A stretch of DNA of 26,897 nt. It comes from a virus. Below are positions 17,929-26,897 of this stretch, in pieces. The notes beneath the pieces are model-generated. The model was given only the letters and a program-made list of their open reading frames with translations, was not told where the DNA came from and ran no database searches. A program made the position numbers and the translations under genes. Numbering within the stretch: position 1 is the stretch's first letter; the number at the start of each line of letters is the position of its first letter. Location of the stretch: the IMG/VR virus record IMGVR_UViG_3300027770_000215, positions 1 to 26,897 of that record, one strand, 5' to 3'.

Positions 17929-19879
17929 TTGGCGCCTTTCGGTTTGTTTGGATAATTTCGGAAATCAGCCGGCGCGCTAGCGCTTCGGCGGTGGCGATAT
18001 GCCCTACTGTGTGCCAGTCATCTTTACGGGCGCGCGCCTCACGCTCAATCGTGTCGGCAAACGCGGTGGCGATAGCGGCGCCGTCACCGTCACCTACGCC
18101 ACCCAATAGACTTAACAGCCCCTTGTATATGGGGGAACACTCGGCGCCTAGGCGCGCCACGTCAGGGCGCCAGCGCTGGACCTTGGCGGGCGTCCGGCAA
18201 GACGCCAGGTACTTTGCCTCCGCTTCACACGCGCGCGCCATAGCGGCTTGTGCGCTCGGTAGGAACAGCTCTAGCGCTTTGGTTTCGGCTACGGGCGCTT
18301 CGGGCGCCACAGGCGCCGCGGGCGCTGGCGCCGCTTTGGTTGGCGCTGGCGCTGTTGCGTTGACGCCAGCCAATACCGCGTCCACCTTTGCGGGGTCAAG
18401 CGCTGGGAAACCCGCAAGAATTAAAGCCTTGCCAGCTTCGCTGGACAATACGCCCGTTGACACGCTCCCAAGAATTTCCAAAATGCTTGCAATTTGTGCG
18501 CCGTTGAGGGCGGTATCGGCGATAATAGGCGCGCTGTCGGAAGGTGCCGGCGGTGGCGTGGTTTGTGTCCCGGTTTCACTTCCTTGTTCCGGCGGGACAG
18601 TTCCAGCCGCCGCCGGCGTTTGACCGTCAGGCGCCGCGCCTGGCGTTGTGGTGTTCAGCGGTACGCGCACTGTGTCCCCGCTTTCGCCAATGCTCGGCAA
18701 TGATTCCAACGCCCGCGCCTCATTGACAGTGAGTAGGCCTGTAGTTAAACCAATGTTATACGAGCTGTAACGGCTGGCGCGGTCACCCCGCTGTAAATCG
18801 TCAAAATTTATACGAGTATAATAATCGCTGCCGCGCTTAAATAGTTTGCGGTTTACTTCCTGCTCTATAATGCTGGCGTAGTTGGCAAGCGTCGAACTGA
18901 TAAACGCCGCCTCACCTTGCTCTTGTGAGGAGTAGGAAATACTTTCAGTGGCGCCAATCTTAAACGATGGGACGCCAAAGGCGCTGGCGATCTGCGCCCG
19001 GCAATACTTGCGGACGTCAATCATCTGATTTTCTACCATGTTCGTCGACACGGGATTAAACGTAAGGCCGTTTTCTAGCACTGCAATGCGCCCGCTGTTA
19101 AATACTCCGCCCTGCTGTTTCTGCCATGACTCGCGCAATCGCCCGGCTGCTTCAGCGCTCAGGGTGCCTGCCATCGTTAGTATACCGCTTGGCCTTGCGC
19201 TGTTGGCGAAAAATCTAGCAACATATTCCTCCAGCGCCAATTCCTGAGCAATTAAGTTACGCATCGCCGCGATTGGCGCCATGCCTAAAATGCCATCGCC
19301 GCCCGTGGCGGTCAGGCAATGTAAAATATCAAACGGGCGGAACATTCTCTGTTTGACTGAATCGCTCGCCTTCTCACTCACTGACCCAGAATAATATTGA
19401 TAATACGGCTGGTTGGATTGGTCGCGCTGCATGAACATATAATCAGGGCGCAAATGCTCTAGCGATACCGCTTCACCCGCGGCGTTGCGCTGAATAAAAC
19501 TGTAGCTGTTCCCGTATAAACATAAATCGGATACGGTCAATTCTCGCCACGTGTGGGCCGTTTGGTCTTCGTTACTTTCCACGTTGAGTAGCCCGTAAAT
19601 ACTGTGTTCTTTATCAGGCTCGGCGGTGCCTGTTTCGTAGTCGTTTTCTAGAACCATCCACGGCATACGCGCGATGGTTTGCGAAATTAGTTTGACGCAA
19701 GCGTAAACGCTCGGCGCGCTCATCGCATTCTCAGGCGTTACGGTTATATTGCTTGTGCTGTAATCGCTCAGATAACTCTGAATACTCGGCCCCACTGGCA
19801 TACCGATTTGAGTATTTTCCTCGAAGTCAGCCCGCGGGGGAGTCTTAAAAGCGCGTAAGAATAAATCTTTCAGAGCCAT
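17918..19879 (-). CDS. Portal protein with long C-terminal extension
   Basis: 653 aa. Residues 1-400 are an HK97-family portal: NAMSAPSVYACVKLISQTIA, LTVSDLCLYGNSYSFI, FRPFDILHCL, AFGVPSFKIGATES. After the usual end near LTVNEARALESLPSIGESGD comes a ~250-aa extension. It has a Pro/Ala linker, the known portal add-on motif DTALNGAQIASILEILGSV with PALDPAKVDAVLAGV, another Ala/Pro linker, and a helical end domain RTPAKVQRWRPDVARLGAE that is not recognised. Its stop and start overlap the protease and terminase genes. Confidence 0.88.
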   Translation of the reverse strand: MALKDLFLRAFKTPPRADFEENTQIGMPVGPSIQSYLSDYSTSNITVTPENAMSAPSVYACVKLISQTIARMPWMVLENDYETGTAEPDKEHSIYGLLNVESNEDQTAHTWRELTVSDLCLYGNSYSFIQRNAAGEAVSLEHLRPDYMFMQRDQSNQPYYQYYSGSVSEKASDSVKQRMFRPFDILHCLTATGGDGILGMAPIAAMRNLIAQELALEEYVARFFANSARPSGILTMAGTLSAEAAGRLRESWQKQQGGVFNSGRIAVLENGLTFNPVSTNMVENQMIDVRKYCRAQIASAFGVPSFKIGATESISYSSQEQGEAAFISSTLANYASIIEQEVNRKLFKRGSDYYTRINFDDLQRGDRASRYSSYNIGLTTGLLTVNEARALESLPSIGESGDTVRVPLNTTTPGAAPDGQTPAAAGTVPPEQGSETGTQTTPPPAPSDSAPIIADTALNGAQIASILEILGSVSTGVLSSEAGKALILAGFPALDPAKVDAVLAGVNATAPAPTKAAPAPAAPVAPEAPVAETKALELFLPSAQAAMARACEAEAKYLASCRTPAKVQRWRPDVARLGAECSPIYKGLLSLLGGVGDGDGAAIATAFADTIEREARARKDDWHTVGHIATAEALARRLISEIIQTNRKAPNEN

Positions 19880-21501
19880 TTTAGATCGTTGCTTTCATAA
19901 ATTGAGGGTGTATTATTTTCCGCATCCTTTGAACACATACACGCGAGCGCTGTTACTAACGCGCTACACGCGTCTATCCGTTCCGTTGACTTTGCTTTAC
20001 TCGGCTTACAATTAGCGGCCGCGTCCAGTTCCAAAACCGTATTACTTACGCACCAGTCAAGCACCACGTTCGCTGGGTGCTTCAGCCGTCCACTCAAAAT
20101 TAAACTCTCTAATTTCTTACACGGCTCCGACATTGTTCGGAAACCTTGCCGCACTTCAACCATTTTAAACCCCTGGCTTTGCAACGTGGTTGCCAACATC
20201 GTGGCATTCCAAGGGTCATACCCACACAGTATAATAGACTTTGCTATTTTCGCAATTCGTTGCAAAGTATTCACGATGGCGTCATAATCCACCACGTCCC
20301 CGCTGGTTGCCTCTAGGTGGCCGCGCTCGCGCCAATCCTCATACGGTACGCGGTCTAATTTCGCGCGGCGGCGTATACCGTTTTCGGGGCAGAAACTGAA
20401 AGGAATACACGTTACATTTTCTTCCTCATCCGTGAATATACAAGCTATGGAAGTAAGGTCCACGGTGGTGCTGAGGTCCATTCCGATATACAGATTTTGA
20501 CCCGCCAGTGATTCAATGTCTAAGCCTGGCACCGCGCAAGCGTTCCAGCTCTCGGCGCTGATCCATCGCGTTTCGCTTTCGGTCCACTGGTTTAAATACA
20601 GCCGGCGAAACTGCGAACTATAACCCGTCAGCTCTTGCGCTTTGGCGTGTTCGGCGCGCAAGAATTCTAAACTCACTGACACGCCTAGCGATGGGTTACA
20701 TTTTGCCCACACCTTTTCGTCGTGCCAATCATCGTCTTTTTCCGCCCCCCAAATCACGGGCAAGAATGCTGGGTCTTTTACTATACCCTTGCGGACATGA
20801 TCCGCATACTGATGCAGCTTCCAACATAACGAATTCTTGTCATGCCCCGCGGTGGTTATGCTTAGTATAAGTGGTTGCGCGCGCGCGCCCACACCCGTTA
20901 CCAAAGCGTTGTATAACTCCTCGCCCGCTGGTCCAAATGTATGGACCTCATCCAGTATAATAGTGCTACAACTTTTGCCGTGCTTATTGGCTGCATCGCT
21001 GCTGATTATATCCAGGCGTCCCGCGTTATCTTTAGACGATATGGTGTTCCGCATGACCTCGACGCATTCGCTCAGCGTCTTGGAATTCTTTACCATCATG
21101 CGCGCCGTGTCACCGCATACCGCCGCCTGGTCCCGGCTACTTGCGGCTATCACTACTTCGGGTGCATTCTCGCCGTCAGCTAACAAGCAATATAATCCCA
21201 CCGCGGCCATCATCGTGGTCTTTCCATTCTTGCGTGGTATTTCCACAAAAGCATTTCGATAGCGCCGCGTCCCATCCTCGCGCATCCACCCGAACAGATT
21301 AGATATAAACGAGTGTTGCCATGACTCTAAGATAAATGGCTTACCCGCCCACTTGCCTTTATAATGGGTTATGTGGGTTTCAAAAAACCAACACGCATTT
21401 TCTGCCCGCTCATTATCGTAGTAGTCCCCTGGCGCCGCGGTGGCTACTGGGTCATAGCCTGGAATATTCTTGGGGCAAACAATCTTACGTTTTCTTGGCA
21501 T
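19870..21501 (-). CDS. Terminase large subunit, HK97-like
   Basis: 543 aa packaging motor. ATPase: adenine-type segment WQHSFISNLFGW near 61-72, Walker A PRKNGKTT near 89-96, Walker B IILDE near 181-185, coupling motif SITTAGHD near 214-221. Nuclease: first acidic motif GMDLSTTVDLT with Asp342 and last acidic DACSAL near 518. The small subunit is the P27 type, as in HK97-like cos phages; the upstream repeat region may be its target. Starts 17 nt inside the small subunit gene. Confidence 0.9.
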   Translation of the reverse strand: MPRKRKIVCPKNIPGYDPVATAAPGDYYDNERAENACWFFETHITHYKGKWAGKPFILESWQHSFISNLFGWMREDGTRRYRNAFVEIPRKNGKTTMMAAVGLYCLLADGENAPEVVIAASSRDQAAVCGDTARMMVKNSKTLSECVEVMRNTISSKDNAGRLDIISSDAANKHGKSCSTIILDEVHTFGPAGEELYNALVTGVGARAQPLILSITTAGHDKNSLCWKLHQYADHVRKGIVKDPAFLPVIWGAEKDDDWHDEKVWAKCNPSLGVSVSLEFLRAEHAKAQELTGYSSQFRRLYLNQWTESETRWISAESWNACAVPGLDIESLAGQNLYIGMDLSTTVDLTSIACIFTDEEENVTCIPFSFCPENGIRRRAKLDRVPYEDWRERGHLEATSGDVVDYDAIVNTLQRIAKIAKSIILCGYDPWNATMLATTLQSQGFKMVEVRQGFRTMSEPCKKLESLILSGRLKHPANVVLDWCVSNTVLELDAAANCKPSKAKSTERIDACSALVTALACMCSKDAENNTPSIYESNDLKWL

Positions 21502-21970
21502 TGGTAAACCTAGCGGCTAGCTTTGCGGCGCCGCTCACCGCGGCCACGGCTTGCGTGGTCAGCCCTACGCGGGCGCTGGCGGTCAGCCCGTAGGCTTGGA
21601 TGATCTTCACCGCGTCCGCCCTAGCGTCACGCGCGCGCCGGCTCCACGGATTGACTACCAAACCTTGCGGGGTTTCCACACAATCGCCGCCCGTTTCCTC
21701 AATCATGCGCTCGCAGTGGTTGCCCTTTGCCAGCGCTTCCGCGCAAATGCTCAGCGCTAGCCCGTCTTGCATCTTTAATACTCCCAGCGCGCCAATATCA
21801 CGCAACAGAATATCGTACATTTCCAGCGCTTCAGTATTTTCTAGAATGAATGGCCACGGCTTTGGAATACCGTCAGTCCCCTGGACTTCCTTTAATGATC
21901 GCGCGAGGCCATGTTCCGAACCTCTATCAATTAGTATTTTAGTTGGCGTTCGTTGTGGCCCGCGCGACAT
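21485..21970 (-). CDS. Terminase small subunit, P27 family
   Basis: 161 aa from ATG 21970, whose product begins MSRGPQRTPTKILIDRGSEH, the hallmark P27 start; an upstream ATG at 22057 is in frame but unlikely. Remaining helices with LLRDIGALGVLKMQDGLALS and YGLTASARVGL are family-typical. No SD, but a TATACT box lies 8 nt before ATG, so the mRNA is near-leaderless. Confidence 0.85.
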   Translation of the reverse strand: MSRGPQRTPTKILIDRGSEHGLARSLKEVQGTDGIPKPWPFILENTEALEMYDILLRDIGALGVLKMQDGLALSICAEALAKGNHCERMIEETGGDCVETPQGLVVNPWSRRARDARADAVKIIQAYGLTASARVGLTTQAVAAVSGAAKLAARFTNAKKT

Positions 21971-21978
21971 TGTAAACG

Positions 21979-22006
21979 AGTATACAGACACAAAAAAAAT
22001 ATACAA
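21979..22006 (-). promoter_or_regulatory. Late promoter candidate in front of terminase
   Basis: Minus strand TTGTAT (22006-22001), 16-bp spacer containing an 8-T tract, -10 TATACT (21984-21979). The -10 is strong (5/6), the -35 weak (3/6). ATG 21970 starts 8 nt after the -10. Would drive the late module, if no other activator is needed. Confidence 0.5.
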
Positions 22007-22143
22007 GTTGCGCGCGAAATGTATACCACCCGAAATAATACGCGCACTGGCGCGCAAATAATCAAGGTATTAAATAAAAAGGGTCTTTTCTATACTGTCG
22101 GGCGTGTGTGTGGATTTGCGGAGGACGGTTACCCATGTTTCAT

Positions 22144-22289
22144 GACTGAATCGCCACCCCCCCCGTACGTCCGTTTTTAGTGGCGTTTTTGGGTCAGAAT
22201 CGCCACTATTGGGGAGTAAGTGGCGTTAGTGCGTCAGAATCGCCACTTTAGGGCGTTTAGTGGCGTTAGCGCGTCACGGCTGGCGCAGT
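22144..22289. repeat. Candidate cos/pac: hairpin-forming repeats with 40-bp period
   Basis: Two 29-bp repeats at 22179-22207 and 22219-22247 share agtggcgtt...cagaatcgccact; each carries inverted ends agtggcg/cgccact. A third, degenerate unit begins at 22259 exactly 40 bp further, overlapping the HNH stop, and a half unit gaatcgccac is at 22148-22157. The region 22007-22143 between this and the promoter holds AT-rich DNA with no other clear feature. The position between HNH and terS is where cos lies in HK97-like phages. Confidence 0.65.
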
Positions 22290-22612
22290 GGCGTACGTTC
22301 CATTATGGTCTTACGGCGGTGGCATGACTTGCACAGCGGCATTAGGTTACTCCGTGTTAAACGTAATTCTGGCGCAAGTGTGACAGGCACTATATGATCC
22401 ACCTCTACCGCCGCTTCAATGCGCGGGCGCTGGCTGTGGCTCCCCTTTAAACACAGCCGGCACAATGGCTCCTCGCTGATTACCTTAGCGCGCAAGCGCT
22501 GCCAATCCTTCCCGTATCCGCGGACTCCACTGTTAGGGCGTAAGTCCGGCGCTCGCTGCTTAGGCTGTGCGGCCTTGGCTTTGGCGCCTAGGATCGGTGG
22601 CTTTATGGGCAT
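22274..22612 (-). CDS. HNH endonuclease next to terminase
   Basis: 112 aa from ATG 22612 (AAGGTGGG SD; in-frame TTG at 22630 rejected). Zinc-binding CRLC near 51-54 and CKSC near 94-97, catalytic VDHIVPV near 71-77, and NLMPLCKSCHRRKT. Small HNH genes beside terS assist terminase cutting in cos phages (HK97 gp74 type). Its 3' end overlaps the cos-like repeats. Confidence 0.87.
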   Translation of the reverse strand: MPIKPPILGAKAKAAQPKQRAPDLRPNSGVRGYGKDWQRLRAKVISEEPLCRLCLKGSHSQRPRIEAAVEVDHIVPVTLAPELRLTRSNLMPLCKSCHRRKTIMERTPLRQP

Positions 22613-22881
22613 CGGTATCCCACCTTCCAAAGCGCCTGGCTAATCCAGCGCGCGCTGTCCGTTACCGCTTGCTCATCGAGTAAGGGTAATGAACCGTGTA
22701 TACATTCATGCAATATCACTTCAAGACGTACGCGCCCCTTTAGCGAATCCCTTATGGTTATTGTTGGGTGACGTCCAGGTGGCCAGTCAATCGTACCGTC
22801 AGCGCGCTTGCTTATAGCGGTGGACTTAACAAAGCGTATGCGCCATACCACCTCGTTTAGTTTAACCCGTATTGGTTGCAT
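22603..22881 (-). CDS. Small HExxH zinc-metalloprotein, 92 aa
   Basis: 92 aa with HECIH near 58-62 and a downstream Glu near 70 (LLDEQAV), consistent with a gluzincin-type zinc site. Too short for a full SprT or ImmA protein; such minimal proteins are found in phages beside packaging and DNA genes. Possible roles are anti-repressor-type cleavage or a non-catalytic fold. The SD AAGGGCAG lies before its ATG. Confidence 0.6.
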   Translation of the reverse strand: MQPIRVKLNEVVWRIRFVKSTAISKRADGTIDWPPGRHPTITIRDSLKGRVRLEVILHECIHGSLPLLDEQAVTDSARWISQALWKVGYRCP

Positions 22882-24501: not shown

Positions 24502-24687
24502 CTACTTGCTAGGAATGCTACGGTGGCCTTGGTATCCGCGCTGGCGTGGCGCCAAGCGCTTTACATCAGCTTGTGTAAATACCATGGTGCTACCTATTCG
24601 TTTACCAATGCCAAGTGTGCGCGCTCTGCGCCACACACCTGGCAAGCTGCAACCCAGCGCGGTGGCTACGTCTTTAGCACTAAGCAT
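24502..24687 (-). CDS. Excisionase/MerR-like helix-turn-helix protein
   Basis: 61 aa: AKDVATALGCSLPGVWRRAR is a helix-turn-helix and STMVFTQADVKRL is the wing and following helix of the excisionase-like HTH_17 group. With no integrase here it is more probably a small transcription regulator than a Xis. It starts 7 nt inside the upstream gene. Confidence 0.7.
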   Translation of the reverse strand: MLSAKDVATALGCSLPGVWRRARTLGIGKRIGSTMVFTQADVKRLAPRQRGYQGHRSIPSK

Positions 24688-25373: not shown

Positions 25374-25890
25374 TTAGGGGCGTCCCTTTGTATATACTTG
25401 TAAGTACATTTGTAAGGGGTGTGACTGTATAGCCCCCTGTTCGTGATAGTATAGCCCCCTGTTCGTGATTATATAGCCCCTTCGGTACCTTTGCTGGGTC
25501 GGTTAATTCATAGGTTGCGGACTCGATTCCTTGGCGTTTTTTTATCACAATGACTACCCCCTTTCGTATTAGTTCCTTGAACCCAATCGAAATTCTGCGG
25601 TGATCTACCCCGCCTTTGACGCCTAGAATTACACCTTTATTTTCGTGCAATGCGGCGCCGTACTGGGTGGCTATCGCCTTGTGGCCACAGCGCCACTGGC
25701 ACGTATCCCAGCGCCCTCGAATGCTGAACCCTAATAGGATTTGCAGCGCTGGCTTGCTCAGGGTGTGCATGGTGTGGGTATTCATCCACTCCCCTAGCCG
25801 GCGGTTCAGTTCCTTCATGGACCCACTGCGCCGCGGCTGTTTCTTGTTTAGCTTAGTGGGCAATGCGCCCGTGTAGACGCCCTTGCCCAT
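25327..25890 (-). CDS. Replication initiator-like winged-helix protein with internal iterons
   Basis: 187 aa. Begins MGKGVYTGALPTKLNKKQPR, then helices MKELNRRLGEWMNT and KPALQILLGFSIRGRW, HKAIATQYGAALHENKGVIL and a wing-like strand VVIVIKKRQGIESATYEL; these form a plausible winged-helix DNA-binding domain of residues ~45-130, as in phage replication proteins. The last third is low in structure and is encoded by the tandem 22-bp iterons. It follows the primase-helicase gene with a TAATG overlap, as lambda O and P are paired. Function by context and fold; family not identified. Confidence 0.65.
   Translation of the reverse strand: MGKGVYTGALPTKLNKKQPRRSGSMKELNRRLGEWMNTHTMHTLSKPALQILLGFSIRGRWDTCQWRCGHKAIATQYGAALHENKGVILGVKGGVDHRRISIGFKELIRKGVVIVIKKRQGIESATYELTDPAKVPKGLYNHEQGAILSRTGGYTVTPLTNVLTSIYKGTPLNGGAPTPQESAAPLD
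25389..25486. repeat. Three tandem 22-bp iterons plus AT-rich flank: candidate replication origin
   Basis: Units at 25421-25442, 25443-25464 and 25465-25486, each gtga..gtatagccccctgttc; the first two differ at only two bases and the third is degenerate at its right end. Because 22 is not a multiple of 3, each repeat is read in a different frame, so the conservation is of DNA rather than of protein. An AT-rich stretch (25389-25415) lies beside them, as a duplex-unwinding element would. Confidence 0.7.
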
Positions 25891-26897
25891 TACCCTAGAA
25901 TCTCAAATTGTTGGTGGGCGCCTGAGAATGCGGTGGTGAAATCCTTTTGCTCGCCGTGGCGGTTCTTCATGCAGCGCCAGGTGATCCGTTTCTTCCCGTT
26001 TTCTAGCAGCGACTCGTCTAATGCAATTTCGCCAACGAATAACGAATCTACTTGGTAGTCAATTTCACTTGATTCTTTACCGATGTTGCCTATGCGGTAC
26101 TCCCCATTCTGTTTCGCCATATTGCTTATTAGGATCACGGCTAAATTGCTACTGATCGCTAGCGCCCGTACGCCACGGATGACGCTATCTATTTCCGTTC
26201 GCCTGTCAGCGCGCGGGTCTATACCGTTTACCAACTGCAAATAATCTATAACAAGTATACTGGCGCCCGCGCGCTCCACCACTTGCGCCATGTTCGCAAA
26301 GTTTAAAGGTGGCATTATAATTTTTATTCTGTCGGCGTACGCGTGTAGGTTTTCTGCCACCGCTTGCGCGGCCTCTGTTTTCTGTATTGCTTGGTCTAGG
26401 GTTACGGTTGCCTTGGTATCCCAATTTGCAATGGCGCGCGCGGCTATGGCGGTCTTAGTCATTTCGCCCAGGCACCATGCGGAAACTAAATCAGGGTTGG
26501 CTTGGGTTGCGTCTAGCACAATCTGTAGCGCCAGCGCGCTCTTGCCTACGCCCGGCGCGCCTGTAAAACAAACCAACTGGCCACGCTTCAGCCCGCCTAG
26601 CGCCACGTCTAGCCAGGTATTCGTTTCAATGGTGGGAAGCTCTTTACTATGCAACCACTCATGGATGCAACCCGCAAGTGTGTCGGCTTGCGCCGTGTCC
26701 GTATCGTCGAACACTGGCGCCGTGTCCTCAGCGCGGTCCATGATCGGAGTACGCTCTTTACCAAAGGCGTTGCGTATTTGGCGTGGTAAATCTGCAAGCC
26801 CGTCAGCGTCCAACCCCAGCGCTGCTGCTTGAACCATGAGTAGACGCGCGGCGTGTTCCCGTTCCCATCCGCGCGCGTGTAAATCGCAAGCCACGGT
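25702..26897. repeat. Right copy of imperfect 1196-bp terminal duplication
   Basis: Counterpart of 1-1196 at offset 25,701. Mismatches are absent or rare up to 26284 and frequent beyond (about 7% from 26285 to the end by eye). Confidence 0.9.
25890..26897 (-). CDS. Primase-helicase, C-terminal part of strain-variant copy
   Basis: The frame is open to the window edge; it corresponds to residues ~229-562 of the full protein at 189-1877. Walker A and B are kept. Seven substitutions are seen, e.g. I325V, R359Q, N389K, P391T, E406A, A409E and S428A, five of them within 389-428. It is not a separate gene, but the same gene from a second strain in the mix. Confidence 0.85.
   Translation of the reverse strand, partial: TVACDLHARGWEREHAARLLMVQAAALGLDADGLADLPRQIRNAFGKERTPIMDRAEDTAPVFDDTDTAQADTLAGCIHEWLHSKELPTIETNTWLDVALGGLKRGQLVCFTGAPGVGKSALALQIVLDATQANPDLVSAWCLGEMTKTAIAARAIANWDTKATVTLDQAIQKTEAAQAVAENLHAYADRIKIIMPPLNFANMAQVVERAGASILVIDYLQLVNGIDPRADRRTEIDSVIRGVRALAISSNLAVILISNMAKQNGEYRIGNIGKESSEIDYQVDSLFVGEIALDESLLENGKKRITWRCMKNRHGEQKDFTTAFSGAHQQFEILG

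Follow-up and report, generated by a model that had tools for sequence, protein, structure and literature searches.

The cos site of phage lambda, with cosQ, cosN and a cosB that holds R3, R2 and R1 and the IHF site I1, is a cut site with multi-copy protein sites nearby; its cosB, with the repeated sites for the small terminase (TerS), is found on the terS side of cosN. The right-end element cosQ is needed for termination, according to the excerpt of PMC4669245, and the excerpt of PMC9410871 describes 5' overhangs for lambda and no HNH endonuclease. HK97 has 3' overhangs, of 10 nt in PMC11331095 and in a legend of PMC9410871, whereas the discussion of the latter gives 12 nt, and according to the excerpts of PMC11331095 and PMC10370121 its TerS requires the stretch from +15 to +29, with C:G at 21 and an A-tract at 24-29. 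For HK97, stalling at cos is reported to depend on both TerS and a low speed (excerpts of PMC9410871 and PMC11331095). By what means HK97-like cos phages halt at the correct place is not yet settled; the HK97 papers, in the same excerpts, put the emphasis on slow translocation together with a single site for TerS. The HK97 record (AF069529) starts with GTTTGAATTTAACGCTAACCCGATTTTTTT and ends in GGGGGGGGGATCAAATCTTCAAAACCTTTGCCCCAAATGAC CGCCGCCAAA, with GAC directly before CGCCGCCAAA, and the record of Pseudomonas phage D3 (AF165214) ends in CAC CGCGCCCCCA; both have G-runs upstream of the right end.

The DNA analysed here, which in its full length of 26,897 nucleotides is called the window, comes from the IMG/VR virus record IMGVR_UViG_3300027770_000215. 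We interpret the region between its HNH and terS genes, with a probability of about 0.6, as an HK97-type cos with 3' overhangs of approximately 10 nt, accompanied by a lineage-specific accessory array of predicted protein-binding dyads at the chromosome end that is packaged last. The features of the region, in their order on the minus strand, are the following.

22274-22630, minus strand: HNH endonuclease gene (PF01844)
22259..22289, minus strand: third unit, degenerate but with one good half-site; it reaches into the 3' end of the HNH gene
22221..22245 (29-bp form 22219-22247), minus strand: dyad unit 2, 25 bp, TGGCG...CGCCA
22181..22205 (29-bp form 22179-22207), minus strand: dyad unit 1, 25 bp, TGGCG...CGCCA
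22157..22164, minus strand: G8 run (C8 on the plus strand), which corresponds to the G9 run of HK97 and precedes the mapped left end by 40 bp
22145..22156, minus strand: lone half-site TGGCGATTCAGT, directly 3' of the G-run; from 22156 the minus strand reads TGGCGATTC
~22117..22127, minus strand: predicted 10-nt cohesive end (GTCCTCCGCA or, shifted by 1, CGTCCTCCGC), placed to within 1 nt from relatives in which both ends are mapped
22116, minus strand: +1, the left chromosome end; contigs L002, L003 and L004 start at the homologous base
22086..22102, minus strand: candidate TerS site CCCGACAGTATAGAAAA, +15 to +31, in an HK97-like register
21485..21970, minus strand: terS (PF05119)
19870..21501, minus strand: terL (PF03354 and PF20441)

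The first-pass annotation had placed the units between HNH and terS, and Pfam matches confirm HNH, terS and terL as the neighbours. Judged from relatives, the more likely start of terS is the ATG at 21970 rather than the TTG at 22057. Directly before the gene, at 21980-22026 on the minus strand, there are three GTATAC/TGTATA-like motifs, mostly preserved in four relatives (L001, L002, L003 and G008), which could possibly be an operator or promoter of terS. The gene order on the minus strand is HNH, the repeats, terS, terL, portal, protease and two capsid genes; the latter are adjacent and different, and both match the capsid family PF05065 (14859-16109 and 16204-17292, minus strand). A protein of 61 amino acids resembling HTH_17, encoded at 24502-24687 on the minus strand, is a candidate DNA-binding partner, with an E-value of 0.0014 that is under the Pfam cut-off. 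The two ends of the record (1-1193 and 25702-26894) overlap over 1193 bp with 96.1% identity, 46 mismatches and no gaps, which is not a true terminal repeat, in all probability, but the mark of a circular genome of about 25.7 kb that was closed with two strains.

The physical ends were approached by using the ends of contigs from relatives as proxies. Three TerL relatives from three IMG/VR datasets (L002, L003 and L004, the last two with nearly the same sequence) all start with AATCCACGCACACG, which is homologous to position 22116 of the window on the minus strand. A scan with a TerS profile gave 17 loci bearing terS, of which nine start at one homologous base, seven span it and one (L131, the same as L001) starts inside the G-run. 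The nine (L129, L130 and L133, which are L003, L004 and L002, and L134, L135, L137, L139, L140 and L141) have nine dataset ids, with identical starts within L129/L130 and within L140/L141; the homology of the base between the two sub-groups was read by eye from the register, with AGT (GGT in L140/L141) at +21 to +23. Of the 59 TerL loci that begin at a contig end, 39 have their start 490-1180 bp ahead of the terL match. The anchor GTCAA/CCCAA is found near the start in 20 of the loci, at exactly base 17 in 11 of them and at 7 to 62 in the others.

For the right end there are 12 contigs with the array. Four of these stop 30-31 nt after the G-run (L299, L308, L298 and L305), six span the region, and the remaining two, L270 and L294, run on beyond the homologous base for 16 and 14 nt. 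On the spanning contig L138, counted from 0, the end of L299 falls at 2332 and the start of L140/L141 at 2342, with the gap CGTGCTTGGC, and L308 (matched on L142/L144) and L139 (matched on G011) flank an identical 10-mer, CGCTCGTGGA. Thus, for two of the four contigs ending after the G-run a left-end contig starts exactly 10 nt beyond the right end; L298 and L305 share one end, for which no left partner was found. If both ends carry 10-nt 3' overhangs, end repair leaves a gap of 10 nt, whereas a 5' overhang is filled in and duplicated. The gap in two groups of relatives is what would be expected if 10-nt 3' overhangs had been lost in library preparation, and it is from the gap that we infer which strand protrudes.

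Within this intergenic region the contig ends of relatives, left and right, fall on fixed homologous bases, and on these grounds the sequence comparison supports the locus as a cos site. The first-pass annotation had left the choice between cos and pac open; the fixed ends speak for the former and against the latter, as the variable or permuted ends of headful packaging were not seen among the relatives, in which the ends recur at one base. A cut within the units themselves is not supported, since on the terS side about 50-65 bp separate unit 1 from the mapped ends.

In its layout the locus resembles HK97. Both have the order HNH, cos, terS and terL with a TerL of PF03354/PF20441, the G-run precedes the left end by 42 bp in HK97 and 40 bp in the window, and a C/G stretch followed by an A/T tract at +15 to +29 is common to them. 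In terms of sequence, it is the C/G and A/T tract at +15 to +31 of the window, and not the repeats, that is the candidate occupant of the position where TerS binds in HK97. No profile similarity of the window TerS to HK97 TerS was detected, the HK97 protein had no match to a Pfam family at E 0.01, and the TerS profile found only unrelated kinase-fusion chains among the PDB sequences. An AF2 model of the window TerS had a pLDDT of 64.7, with residues 1-32 and 130-161 below 50, and a Foldseek search with this model placed HK97 TerS (8pop) at the first rank, at a non-significant E of 1.1. Phage D3 shares with the window an HNH gene at the right end, a G-rich run and terS at the left end, and its right end reads CACCGCGCCCCCA. 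For phiC31 and PSA the HK97-like layout fits only partly, and the phiSLT record was uninformative, being opened at att and not at cos.

The array is what sets the lineage of the window apart. The last 330 bp of HK97 hold no TGGCG dyad unit and those of D3 no dyad, D3 also being without a significant inverted repeat upstream of its G-run, and in the right-end stretches searched the TGGCG dyad was absent from HK97, D3, phiC31, PSA and ENT39118. The units are thus not needed for cos function as such. Inverted repeats upstream of the G-run at p<=0.005 were found in the window, in L259 and in only two of 14 control regions (L071 and L077), with borderline values for phiC31 (0.055) and HK97 (0.08), and palindromes can be rejected as a general property of that place in HNH-linked cos sites. 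The comparison suggests that a G-run placed some 40 bp before the left end recurs in such sites. A run of at least six G within 700 bp after the HNH match was found in 11 of 23 HNH loci, in a set chosen by the HNH match and checked only in part for adjacency to terS; against the run as a general mark, 12 of the 23 are without it, PSA has CCCCCCGGG instead and the run of phiC31 is broken. Compared with lambda, the array is dyad-symmetric and lies on the HNH side, whereas cosB lies on the terS side, and the array of the window is therefore not placed between cosN and terS as the multi-copy TerS sites of a lambda-type cosB are. The remark that the units are unlike the lambda R-sites agrees with this difference in side and with the dyad symmetry.

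Read directly on the plus strand, unit 1 is AGTGGCGTTTTTGGGTCAGAATCGCCACT and unit 2 is AGTGGCGTTAGTGCGTCAGAATCGCCACT. The first description of them, as two 29-bp units with a degenerate third, 40 bp apart, holds: they are identical at 26 of 29 positions with a start-to-start distance of 40, and the third, from 22259, follows at the same distance with an 81% match over the 21 nt compared, although it scores below the threshold of 8 of 10 outer matches. With up to three mismatches, the two-unit pattern was found only in these two places in the window and not in any of 100 shuffles, and strict 25-bp dyads number two in the window against a shuffle mean of 0.02; a looser form of the dyad adds one chance-like site at 17992.

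The units were also looked for upstream of terS in relatives, as had been proposed, and the 25-bp dyad TGGCG..CGCCA is conserved beside cos and invariant across the array-bearing lineage, which consists of uncultured bacterial viruses with TerL identity down to 50% and TerS identity down to 34% (window against L259). In 13 array regions, head-to-head TGGCG/CGCCA pairs occur 27 times at exactly 25 bp and 8 times at 54 bp, which is the span of two dyads 29 bp apart (25+29), while between 10 and 60 bp every other distance is absent. The counts are not independent, since several of the regions are close relatives. An exact pair is present in 11 of the 13; L136 and G011, the two without one, have degenerate right half-sites. 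By the threshold of 8 of 10 outer matches each of 14 arrays has one to six copies, where shuffles give means of 0.03 to 0.24. The start-to-start distances in bp, one array for each lineage, are 40; 56, 40; 29, 44, 32; 29, 54; 25; 25; and 29, 54, 65, 29, 54. Since the spacing between dyads varies from 25 to 65 bp, the suggestion that a 40-bp spacing keeps the units on one face of the helix does not generalise, and there is no 10.5-bp phase (Rayleigh p ~0.60, 15 distances from 7 arrays). A sister phage group (L259, L304 and L305) has five to six units per array, and the 29/54 spacing seen in L142 recurs in two of these three arrays and partly in the third.

A dyad scan of viral sequences gave 56 stretches, and screening for a second dyad or a nearby G-run left 12 cos arrays. 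In the other 44 the match stands alone, and within about 300 bp of it there is no further dyad and no G6 run, so chance-like lone units occur elsewhere. A decoy pattern with a spacer one base longer gave 40 viral stretches with no second dyad and one G-run, inside its own match. In genomes the decoy gave 65 stretches, many from one Bacteroidales assembly; the Bacteroidales MAG Hs463_bin99 (JAISLH01, L188-L248) holds dozens of 30-bp AGTGGCG...CGCCACT palindromes, which are likely a REP-type element unrelated to the phage. Strict dyads are confined to cos in the window, in G008 and in the sequence of L259 and L298 that was examined, and G010 has no strict dyad in a contig that stops short of the array.

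The position of the array between HNH and cosN suggests a role in cos function, and most likely a cos-associated protein binds the repeats, at the end of the chromosome to which the motor comes last. On the minus strand the order would be the HNH stop, the 25-bp dyads, the G-run, the cut (overhang at ~22127-22117, +1 at 22116), the candidate TerS site and terS. Each dyad may be a place where a dimeric protein, or a protein arranged in symmetric pairs, contacts double-stranded DNA, and the array would then form a nucleoprotein segment at the right chromosome end, in the position of lambda cosQ and not of cosB. If packaging starts at the terS end, with the polarity of lambda and HK97 assumed, the motor would meet the array, the G-run and cosN in that order when packaging ends, and the array could help to stop or slow it, or recruit HNH, TerL or TerS for the terminal cut. 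Candidate binders would be TerS, HNH, TerL, the small HTH_17-like protein or a host factor. Since stalling of HK97 depends on TerS and low speed, an array occupied by protein could act on the motor by slowing or marking it. It is tempting, though speculative and as a specific proposal unlikely, to see the array as a "brake strip", in which one to six dyads with a bound phage or host dimer slow the motor before cosN and let TerS and HNH trigger the terminal cut. If true, it would be a multi-copy cosQ-like element, of which none is reported for HK97 in the portion of the literature searched.

That TerS itself is the binder, in the manner of cosB, appears doubtful to us. All the arrays studied adjoin cos, and in one group of relatives the half-sites TGGCGATTTT and TGGCGTTTTT have a G/C stretch followed by an A/T tract like the region of the HK97 TerS site, CCCGATTTTTT. 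HK97 TerS binds, however, on the other side of the cut, at +15 to +29, and as the stretch that matches this site in the window also lies across the cut, the position of the array disfavours TerS; the half-site core TGGCGWT, moreover, remains unchanged while TerS identity drops to 34%. Operators are typically symmetric dyads that occur in tandem ahead of an operon, and these are properties that the units share, being upstream of the packaging operon. They could be bound by a phage or host transcription factor that controls the late (terS) operon, and be near cos only since both precede terS; the gene for the small HTH_17-like protein and a weak promoter-like site at 22025-21998 (two found in the region against 0.9 expected) are compatible with this. 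We nevertheless hold it to be unlikely, since unit 1 is beyond the cut and about 210 bp from the terS start, and the copy number goes from one to six with free spacing. The finding of no second strict copy elsewhere in the window or in G008 counts against operators to a lesser degree, as a single late promoter needs only one place.

Could the units act as RNA, as hairpins after the HNH gene that terminate transcription or stabilise a 3' end? On the transcribed strand both fold better than shuffles (z -4.4 for unit 1 and -3.0 for unit 2), as does the whole 181-nt stretch (z -2.15), and in several relatives the first unit is found immediately behind the HNH stop or overlapping it. Folding is better still on the opposite strand, at -15 against -10.8 kcal/mol for unit 1 and -11.2 against -10.1 for unit 2, and units 1 and 2 are not followed by a T tract when read directly; the terminator-like sites called in a scan restricted to loops of 3-8 miss the units, which do not have the form of Rho-independent terminators. 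An Rfam search gave no match. The inner arms do not covary significantly, with 103 of 168 positions paired against 98.2 for shuffled partners (p 0.19, 24 distinct dyads from 12 regions), which favours a DNA-binding site over an RNA hairpin, and the length of 25 bp is kept even where the arms are unpaired (a unit of G008, and G011). This makes hairpins very improbable as an explanation. Just as improbable are neutral or selfish REP-like palindromes that accumulate in an intergenic gap: the copy number does differ between relatives and some units are degenerate, but the exact dyad length is preserved across phages with 50% TerL identity, and the strict units are confined to one place in the window and in G008.

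Binding of a cos-associated protein is thus the reading that we prefer. No description of such an array was found in a partial search of the literature, and a lineage with a dyad array of variable copy number at the end packaged last is a natural experiment on how packaging is terminated. The analysis also illustrates that the ends of public metagenome contigs reveal cohesive ends and the length of their overhangs. In a distant TerL group in IMG/VR (L007-L057) the contigs repeatedly begin after a C-run (CCCTTCTGTTCGTCCTGTCAATA), and judged by these starts the group has another, putative cos with ends that are readable from contig ends.
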